A stretch of 64,000 nucleotides of DNA from Sphingomonadales bacterium (GTDB lineage Bacteria > Bacteroidota > Bacteroidia > UBA7662), in assembly GCA_016872215.1 (NCBI GenBank), contig VHAX01000005.1:29363-93362 (forward strand), in the 5' to 3' direction. Below are positions 5,712 to 53,720 of this stretch, one piece after another; position 1 is the first letter of the stretch, and each line of letters opens with the position of its first letter. The translations under genes were made by a program, and so were the position numbers. The notes under the pieces are model-generated. The model did no database searches, was not told the DNA's origin, and saw only the letters and a list, made by a program, of their open reading frames with translations.

Positions 5712-6812
5712 CTATGATTTCGAACGCGCTCTGGAAGTTACACTGAATTGGTGGGTGGTGCCCGACAAAGTGTGGGCCGTGCGGCTGTAGTCGAGCCGAA
5801 ATCGCTTGGTATGCAATGCAAATCCCCATGCAAATCCGCTGCTTCCGGAGCGCATGGGCAGGGTCAATTCCTTACGGCGCTGATGGTTGTAGGAGAACTG
5901 GAATTGCAGGTTTTTGGAGAGTAGCAACTCGCTTTGCAGCACGAAGTGACGAAATGTTTCGTCAAGCCAGGGTGTGCCGCTTTTTTGGGATTCTGCCTCC
6001 TCGGTAAATAAAAGCTGCGGGTTGTACCAGGTGTCGGACGGATCAGAATAGCGTAGATTCCAGTTGTGCAGGTTATGCATAACTAACCCCCAACGTAAAG
6101 GCATATGTTCAAGTCGGTTGGATATACTAAGTTGAACGTCTGATGGAAGTCTGCCATTGGTTGAAAGTGGGGAATATGACCACAGCGTGGTACCAAAATT
6201 TCTGAATTGAAGAGCCAATTGGGTACGGCCGGAGGTGTCCTGCCAGCTGGCACCCATGTCGAGGGCTACCCCACCGGAGGAATAGCTGTAGAGGAATGAT
6301 CCGATGTATTTGACCGAACCCCCTGCAGTGAATTGTTTCGCGAAACGGGTTCCCCATCCCCCTTGCAAAACAATTTCGTTGGCACTGAATTGGCCAAGGG
6401 AATTGCCAGTAGGATCAGTTCGTTCGAGTGAGCCGTAGTTGATGAATCCTGCAGAGTATAGAAATTTTCCCCTTGTTTTGGGTGATTCGCGTAGGGTCAC
6501 AGCCTGACCGGCCCGGATATCGGATACGTAGTTAACCACGCTCAACCCAAGAAGTCCGGTTGGAGCGTCGGCAATGAGGGATGGGTGCCATGCCGAAAGG
6601 TGCACTTCGCTTTGGCTGACCGCTGGAGCCACGCCACCCAATGCATTCAGGCGGGCACTGGTGGGTAGATTCAGAAAAGTAAAAACGGTCGGCCTATTGG
6701 GTTGCCCTGCAACGGTTGAGACGTTCAATAAGCCGGTGAGGAGTAAGGCACAACCAAAAATGGAATATTGTATGAACTTTGGAGATGTAGATTGCCTTAT
6801 AGTTTGCCTCAT
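5712..6812 (-). CDS. porQ: type IX secretion system protein PorQ-like outer-membrane protein
   Basis: 366 aa, signal peptide; FTFLNLPTSARLNALGGVAPAVSQSEVHLSAWHPSLI followed by beta-barrel repeats, as in PorQ. Confidence 0.75.
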   Translation of the reverse strand: MRQTIRQSTSPKFIQYSIFGCALLLTGLLNVSTVAGQPNRPTVFTFLNLPTSARLNALGGVAPAVSQSEVHLSAWHPSLIADAPTGLLGLSVVNYVSDIRAGQAVTLRESPKTRGKFLYSAGFINYGSLERTDPTGNSLGQFSANEIVLQGGWGTRFAKQFTAGGSVKYIGSFLYSYSSGGVALDMGASWQDTSGRTQLALQFRNFGTTLWSYSPLSTNGRLPSDVQLSISNRLEHMPLRWGLVMHNLHNWNLRYSDPSDTWYNPQLLFTEEAESQKSGTPWLDETFRHFVLQSELLLSKNLQFQFSYNHQRRKELTLPMRSGSSGFAWGFALHTKRFRLDYSRTAHTLSGTTHQFSVTSRARSKS

Positions 6813-6813
6813 A

Positions 6814-7290
6814 TCAGGGTGCTTGTACTGGAATGGGGCCGAGTGTGAGTATGTTCGAGAAATTCCCCTTACGGTCGCGAAGACGAAGTGTTAGGCGGGC
6901 TGTGTCGACCACTACGCCCGGGCGGCGGTAGGTGGGCACAACTTTCAGATTTATTTCCCCGTATATCTGTTTTTTTTGTCCGGGCGGTGTCACATCGGGT
7001 AGTGAGAAGGGGTACACAACAGGTGGAAAAACCGGTACTCCCTGTCGTGTGTCGGTAACAGTAAAATCCGTATCGCCTGCTGCCTTTCCCAGATCGCCGT
7101 CACCATCCTCGTAATAGACCTTGAGGTATAGAGTATCCACACCCTCGCGAAGACTATCGGGATAAACTTCGAGCAGTCGAATGGCAGGCACTTCATCGAA
7201 ATAGCCCGCTGGGTCGCAGGAATTGAACGCAATCAGTACCAGAACGGCCCATACTGTTCGTGGGAAACGAAATGTATATGAAAACGACAT
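6814..7290 (-). CDS. hypothetical lipoprotein upstream of porQ
   Basis: MSFSYTFRFPRTVWAVLVLIAFNSCDPAGYF lipobox-like signal; 'YYEDGDGDLG' motif. Stop abuts the porQ start. Confidence 0.65.
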   Translation of the reverse strand: MSFSYTFRFPRTVWAVLVLIAFNSCDPAGYFDEVPAIRLLEVYPDSLREGVDTLYLKVYYEDGDGDLGKAAGDTDFTVTDTRQGVPVFPPVVYPFSLPDVTPPGQKKQIYGEINLKVVPTYRRPGVVVDTARLTLRLRDRKGNFSNILTLGPIPVQAP

Positions 7291-7325
7291 CTTCGGAATT
7301 CTACCGAAAAAATGAGACATAAGCA

Positions 7326-7333
7326 CAAAACTA
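7326..7333 (-). promoter_or_regulatory. Bacteroidota -7 element TAGTTTTG upstream of the lipoprotein/porQ pair
   Basis: Plus-strand CAAAACTA at 7326-7333 = TAnnTTTG on the minus strand. Confidence 0.4.
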
Positions 7334-7356
7334 CAACTGCGGTAGTATTATTGCGC

Positions 7357-8397
7357 ATGCCCGAATCAAAATCAGGTAGAAATGGCTTACCGAATGAAGG
7401 GGTCGCTTGTATCGCCGTTTTGGAGCAATTGATTGACGGGTATCATTCGCCCACAAATCAGGAGGTGCTGAGCCTCTTCCGATTTCAAGCGCTGCACAAC
7501 CGTGTTTATTCGGCTTATCTGAAGGCACTCAAGCTCAATCCCGAAGAGGTGCGCACTGTGAATGAAATCCCCTGTCTACCCGTATCCCTGTTTCGCAACC
7601 ACCGGGTGAAGAGTTGGAATTTTCGAAGCGATGCAGTCTGGAACAGCAGCGGCACCTCTTCCCAAATCCCGGCCCGACATTTTGTGGATTCTTTGTCGCG
7701 CTTCCATCGGATCAGTCGCCGCATTTTTGAACAATGCTACGGCCCCTGTGTGGATTGGATTTTCATCGCCTTGCTCCCCTCTTATCTGGAGCGCCATAAT
7801 TCGGGGCTGGTTTGCATGGTTGATGGACTCATGGCAGCGGGTGGTCACCCCTTGAATGGGTATTTTTTGTATGATCATCAATTATTGGCAGAACAGTACC
7901 GCCGGGCGTGCGATAGCCATCGGAGGATCATGCTATTTGGAGTGGGATTCGCCTTGTTGGATTTGGCCGATCGCAATTTGATCGAGATGCGGCCCAATGA
8001 TGTGGTGGTTGAGACCGGGGGCATGAAAGGTCGCGGACAGGAATTGGTGCGTGAGGCGCTCCACGACCGCCTTTGTAAGGGCCTCAAAACAGAACGGATT
8101 CACACAGAATATGGGATGACGGAGCTTAGCTCATCCACTTACTCCTGTGGTTCGGGAAGGATGAGTCCCCCGCCATGGATGAAAATTCGTATACAAAATC
8201 TGCACGATCCGCTGCAGAGTCTGGCCCCGGGCAAAACAGGAACAATAGATATTATTGACTTTGCAAACGTTCACAGTTGTAGTTTTATCAAAACTGATGA
8301 CCTGGGTTGGGCGGAACCAAATGGTAACTTCCATGTGTCAGGTCGACGTGATGAAAGCGAATGGAGGGGGTGCAATCTGCTTTACCAGCTGGAATAA
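7357..8397 (+). CDS. LuxE-family acyl-protein synthetase / acyltransferase
   Basis: NSSGTSSQIPARHFVDS, VETGGMKGRGQELVREALHDRL, HTEYGMTELSSSTYS. The longer frame starts at 7312; ATG 7357 preferred because of TATTATTG at 7346-7353. Confidence 0.7.
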   Translation: MPESKSGRNGLPNEGVACIAVLEQLIDGYHSPTNQEVLSLFRFQALHNRVYSAYLKALKLNPEEVRTVNEIPCLPVSLFRNHRVKSWNFRSDAVWNSSGTSSQIPARHFVDSLSRFHRISRRIFEQCYGPCVDWIFIALLPSYLERHNSGLVCMVDGLMAAGGHPLNGYFLYDHQLLAEQYRRACDSHRRIMLFGVGFALLDLADRNLIEMRPNDVVVETGGMKGRGQELVREALHDRLCKGLKTERIHTEYGMTELSSSTYSCGSGRMSPPPWMKIRIQNLHDPLQSLAPGKTGTIDIIDFANVHSCSFIKTDDLGWAEPNGNFHVSGRRDESEWRGCNLLYQLE

Positions 8398-52892: not shown

Positions 52893-53357
52893 TTAGTAAG
52901 GTCCGATCAGCACCGCAACCAGGGAATATTTCATGATGCCGTCCACTGTAGCGATGCAGTCGGAGTAACTGGTTGAATTTCCTCTGTACACCTTTTTTCC
53001 TTCCACAGTCAACAAACAATCGGAATAACTGCTCGAATTACCCCGGTAAATCTTACCATCGCCAATGGTATATAGACAATCAGAATAGGAAGTTGAGTTG
53101 CCACGATAAATTTTTTTGCCACTAACGGTGAACAGGCAGTCGGAGTAGCTCGTGGAGTTGCCTTTGTAAACCTTTCCGCCATCAAAAGTGTATCGGCAAG
53201 CAGAATAACTTGTTGAATTGCCCTGGTAAACTTTTTCTCCATCCACAGTAAACAAACAATCGGAGTAACTCGTGGAATTGCCCTTAAAAATCTTTGTTTG
53301 CGCCATGGCGATAATAGAGTTAATACATAAAAAAGCCAATAGGAGGATTTTTTTCAT
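52893..53357 (-). CDS. secreted six-fold 20-aa-repeat protein of unknown function
   Basis: Signal MKKILLLAFLCINSIIAMAQ followed by six repeats of K[IV][YF]xGNS[ST]SYSxC. Confidence 0.8.
   Translation of the reverse strand: MKKILLLAFLCINSIIAMAQTKIFKGNSTSYSDCLFTVDGEKVYQGNSTSYSACRYTFDGGKVYKGNSTSYSDCLFTVSGKKIYRGNSTSYSDCLYTIGDGKIYRGNSSSYSDCLLTVEGKKVYRGNSTSYSDCIATVDGIMKYSLVAVLIGPY
52935..53294 (-). repeat. six tandem 60-bp (20-codon) coding repeats
   Basis: KIFKGNSTSYSDCLFTVDGE / KVYQGNSTSYSACRYTFDGG / KVYKGNSTSYSDCLFTVSGK / KIYRGNSTSYSDCLYTIGDG / KIYRGNSSSYSDCLLTVEGK / KVYRGNSTSYSDCIATVDGI. Confidence 0.93.
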
Positions 53358-53434: not shown

Positions 53435-53720
53435 GCTAAAAAACCCTACGTTGACGGGATTCGACGTTTCCACGAAGTGGGTCATCTGCCTTCCAAGTGA
53501 AATCAGGAAATCATCAATTTTCTTCAATATTATTTGCAAAAAAACCACATAAGCACGTTTAAAACCTCCTGCTCACCGACATCCCCACCTGAAAATGCAA
53601 TATAAATATAATAAAAATACAATATGGAAATGCACCACAAACAACTGGTTACCGAATCGTTGTTTTGGATAACGATGAATGATCACCTCATATACCTGCA
53701 GAAAATTTCTCATGTCTCGC

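Follow-up and report, generated by a model that had tools for sequence, protein, structure and literature searches.

A small gene in the 64,000-nucleotide stretch of DNA analysed here (the window; contig VHAX01000005.1 of the Sphingomonadales bacterium assembly GCA_016872215.1) encodes an apparently exported protein of six exact 20-residue repeats, which is almost certainly a member of the Pfam family PF21786 (Bflower_3, '6-fold beta flower protein') and very probably adopts the beta-flower fold that modelling predicts for it. The repeat is real, was correctly read in the initial annotation and is already explained at the family level, and no new system is established; the group of members that carry a cysteine in every unit is a modest addition to a known family.

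Family identity

The PF21786 model matched the window protein once, over model positions 1-124 of 125, with E=3e-39 and 134.2 bits, about 100 bits above the curated cut-off of 34 bits, and the same model was matched by all 18 diverse homologues tested. The initial annotation had offered a beta-flower and a MORN-like strand ladder as alternative folds; the former was right, and the latter is not supported, no MORN model having been matched in the Pfam search at E<=1. Membership in PF21786 confirms the structural guess and at the same time removes novelty at the family level, since the beta-flower fold was described from predicted models and the family was added to Pfam in 2023 (Durairaj et al., PMC10584680); the novelty that the initial annotation implied was thus not borne out. 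The authors of that description reported that the tip of the hairpin carries a semiconserved [DNEQ]XXG motif, which the Pfam cut-off does not require (PMC10584680). This motif occurs nowhere in the window protein and is absent from 12 of the 18 Pfam-matched members, the other six having one to six copies, and it is therefore not defining for PF21786. A search of the source genome with the 5-fold beta-flower model gave no match, and neither did the control for that search.

Gene layout and export

The open reading frame runs along the minus strand, a point missing from the initial annotation, and the plus-strand frame at the same place is interrupted by several stops (Table 1). In the protein, MKKILLLAFLCINSIIAMAQ is followed by the six units and then by IMKYSLVAVLIGPY. 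A Cys at residue 11, within the signal peptide, precedes six others that are spaced exactly 20 residues apart, so that the arrangement first noticed, six exact units with one Cys each after a signal peptide, is confirmed; the repeat span of 22-141 given at that time has the same period as the 21-140 frame used here. The signal peptide is probably cut before Gln20, as judged from its sequence. Some PF21786 members carry lipoprotein attachment motifs according to the published description (PMC10584680). For the window protein a lipoprotein was considered and rejected: Leu, not Gly, Ala or Ser, precedes Cys11, and the congeners have no Cys11, and the signal peptide is therefore not a lipobox. Upstream of the gene, a Bacteroidota-type promoter-like motif, TAnnTTTG, is found at -52, with no convincing -33 box.

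Table 1. Coordinates in the window of the beta-flower gene and its parts
Feature	Position	Strand	Basis
Exported 6-fold beta-flower gene, 154 aa	52893..53357	-	ORF; Pfam PF21786 E=3e-39; conserved in 3 congeners
Signal peptide, residues 1-19, MKKILLLAFLCINSIIAMA	53301..53357	-	Sequence and comparison with congeners
Unit 1, residues 21-40, Cys34	53238..53297	-	
Unit 2, residues 41-60, Cys54	53178..53237	-	
Unit 3, residues 61-80, Cys74	53118..53177	-	
Unit 4, residues 81-100, Cys94	53058..53117	-	
Unit 5, residues 101-120, Cys114	52998..53057	-	
Unit 6, residues 121-140, Cys134	52938..52997	-	
Hydrophobic C-terminal segment IMKYSLVAVLIGPY, residues 141-154	52896..52937	-	AF2 short helix; ending kept in close relatives

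Predicted fold

Structure prediction, which the initial annotation had proposed as a check, agrees with the family assignment. When AF2 was given a two-row alignment of the mature protein and one congener, one of the five models was confident (mean pLDDT 86.1, pTM 0.76) and the remaining four had a mean pLDDT of about 30, and the full-length protein run as a single sequence gave a pLDDT of 37.4, which is not confident. The confident model contains 12 strands and a C-terminal helix at mature residues 126-132, where the pLDDT is only about 50-64. Many PF21786 members are described as having such a hydrophobic helix lodged in the channel. In a Foldseek search of the PDB with this model, the top match was the Tubby-C-like entry 1zxu (Arabidopsis AT5G01750; probability 1.00, E=1.3e-3), with a modest TM-score of 0.48/0.42, and all other entries were at E>=0.2. 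The same entry is the one to which the fold-defining paper likens the beta-flower (PMC10584680), and closure of the 12 strands into a ring would be expected from the Foldseek match. A search of a viral structure library gave no match at E<=0.001.

Age and maintenance of the repeat

Tandem Repeats Finder reported a single tandem array in the whole window, that of the beta-flower gene (period 60, 5.4 copies, 64% matches, score 165). Between the units of this gene the mean pS is 0.86, which is near saturation, and the mean pN is 0.21 (ratio 0.24), indicating that the repeat is old and has been held by selection at the protein level, as the initial annotation had argued from synonymous differences. 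In addition, when the window gene is compared with three congeners, every unit is closest to its positional counterpart, and this position-by-position orthology gives no indication that units have turned over inside the genus. The protein keeps its length of 154 aa across the four genomes examined from the genus, with 79-85% identity to the window copy, and a comparison of the window gene with its congeners gave a pN of 0.05-0.09 and a pS of 0.70-0.81; conservation across the genus with pN far below pS excludes a chance ORF. Taken at the sequence level, the array is old and is kept by selection on the protein, and its copy number is stable among members of the genus. A different history is suggested for one relative (L024 155-619, genome G718), whose six units are 87% identical at the DNA level vs 65% in the window gene and may have been re-amplified or gene-converted recently, with the count kept at six.

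A cysteine-type group within the family

Six Cys-type proteins, which span two bacterial families, have Cys at unit position 14 in 36 of 36 units, whereas the same position is Val or Ile in 32 of the 36 units of six other regular members. Two further members (L025 and L031) have this Cys in some units only. The Cys ladder described in the initial annotation, six Cys 20 residues apart, is thus real, but it had been given no explanation, and it is restricted to a small group and is not a family trait. Unit positions 14 (C/V/I), 16 (Y/F) and 18 (I/V/F) share the same parity and hold hydrophobic or aromatic residues, which suggests that the Cys probably point into the barrel; the six would probably form an inward-facing ring near the long-loop mouth of the barrel. 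No match to DsbA, DsbB, VKOR or Thioredoxin_4 was found in the genome, which is 99.3% complete, and control genomes did give matches; core thiols or a soft-metal site are therefore likelier than disulfides, and the Cys are more likely to be free, buried or soft-metal-bound thiols, to judge from gene content. In genome G505, a Cys-type beta-flower gene lies in two frames, the second piece having two TAA stops (L052 about 7040-7480; also L029), and this gene is apparently a broken copy.

Distribution and gene surroundings

Relatives were found at E<=0.001 in 31 of the 395 genomes of the class and in 25 of its 196 genera, a patchy distribution in which the genome count takes in a small number of weak hits within long ORFs, probably not true flowers. 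By its nearest named relative, a metagenome-assembled genome (L022), the source genome belongs to the Bacteroidota. Outside the genus, the closest relative of the window protein (L023, 67%) comes from another bacterial family, a placement consistent with patchy loss or with transfer. An apparent signal peptide is present in many members and absent in some (L018, L026). In one locus (L030 1507-2781), a 425-aa ORF has a beta-flower domain at its start, with no signal peptide, and a type IX secretion sorting domain at its end; this arrangement is odd, since a signal peptide is expected on a secreted cargo.

The neighbouring SDR, PhoU-like and rnhB genes are kept together only in the genus, with no consistent neighbour beyond it among the loci compared across the class, and the surrounding genes give no hint of a lipid or ligand. 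The PhoU-like gene is intact between the SDR and beta-flower genes of congeners (L022 5270-5947, L065 6484-7170); in the window, a C-terminal remnant of it lies in two frames at 53438-53586 on the minus strand, and the rest is missing.

A mobile-element gene was considered and rejected, as there was no plasmid match and the lone 'phage' record reads like a bacterial chromosome. This record (L046; MT837148.1, 'Bacteriophage sp.') encodes a 6-fold flower at 6484-6910 and has ORFs that, judged by eye, resemble ferritin, DsbD and cysteine synthase. Viral scans for further members returned one locus. On the 116-kb IMG/VR contig IMGVR_UViG_3300021255_003058, the gene at L066 2980-3453 encodes a 6-fold beta-flower that apparently has a signal peptide; it is surrounded by small genes of unknown function, and from its setting it is apparently a beta-flower carried by a phage.

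Proposed role and competing explanations

We propose that the protein would be exported by a signal-peptidase-I type route as a six-fold beta-flower, in which the six 20-aa units would be six two-stranded petals that together close a shallow barrel of 12 strands, and the short hydrophobic C-terminus, the low-confidence predicted helix, may plug the central channel. In the Cys-type members, six Cys would take the place of Val/Ile on every second strand and form a thiol ring. The protein would be located beyond the inner membrane and might serve as a small envelope module, periplasmic or outside, that binds a hydrophobic or lipid-type ligand at the channel; this role, the likeliest active one, is drawn by analogy with the Tubby-C-like fold, and we put it forward as a tentative possibility. 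On the question of function its main rival is a purely structural or adhesive envelope repeat module that binds no ligand and in which the Cys are simply well-packing core residues, a serious contender that falls somewhat short of probable. Cys for Val/Ile would be a conservative swap in a core, the fusion to a type IX secretion tail indicates that flowers can sit in surface proteins, and the lack of a conserved gene partner outside the genus also fits; however, Cys in every one of the 36 units across two bacterial families, at a position where other members use either Val or Ile, exceeds what packing commonly requires, and the units are free to drift independently yet do not. A more specific reading of the Cys-type subfamily, that six symmetry-equivalent inward thiols bind a soft metal (e.g. 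Cu(I), Zn) or a cofactor where the channel opens, seems to us rather improbable; if true, such a site would be the first biochemical activity for any beta-flower.

Three disulfides between adjacent petals, locking the ring, would suit an even number of Cys in equivalent places of an exported protein, but the genome matches none of the four oxidative-folding models named above, and the geometry of a 12-strand barrel is expected to hold equivalent positions on alternate strands beyond disulfide distance, which makes this arrangement quite unlikely. Far less credible still is a repetitive beta-solenoid of the choline-binding or clostridial-toxin (CROP-like) kind, acting as a cell-wall or glycan binder. 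A single-sequence phmmer search weakly matches solved toxin repeats (best 9.9e-06), and the repeat period is similar; however, the PF21786-type profile built from 18 family members matches no PDB chain at E<=0.01, Foldseek gives such entries a probability of 0.08 or less, and the match to the Pfam beta-flower model exceeds its cut-off by the margin given above. The resemblance to CROP repeats is most likely one of composition and period.

The literature searched gave no function for the beta-flower fold and no functional work on beta-flower proteins after the 2023 description. The Cys-type members offer a concrete handle, as a small, soluble-looking protein suits thiol and metal assays, and such assays could yield the first testable biochemistry of the family.

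Comparison with known systems

With the choline-binding and CROP repeats, the window protein shares a period of about 20 residues and a composition rich in aromatic residues and in Gly, Asn and Ser, but those repeats form an open solenoid. The Tubby C-terminal-like and LURP-one-related proteins (1zxu, clan CL0395) share with it a 12-stranded barrel around a central helix, as predicted here; in contrast to them, the prokaryotic flower is built of an exact internal repeat, is shorter and has its helix at the C-terminus. Tubby C-terminal domains are associated with phosphoinositide binding or scramblase activity, and the likeness of the window protein to them is one of fold. The closest comparison is with PF21786 itself, also bacterial, which the window protein resembles in its full-length match, its six hairpin units and its C-terminal hydrophobic segment, and from whose published members it differs in the invariant Cys of every unit, an ordinary signal peptide and the absence of the hairpin-tip motif.
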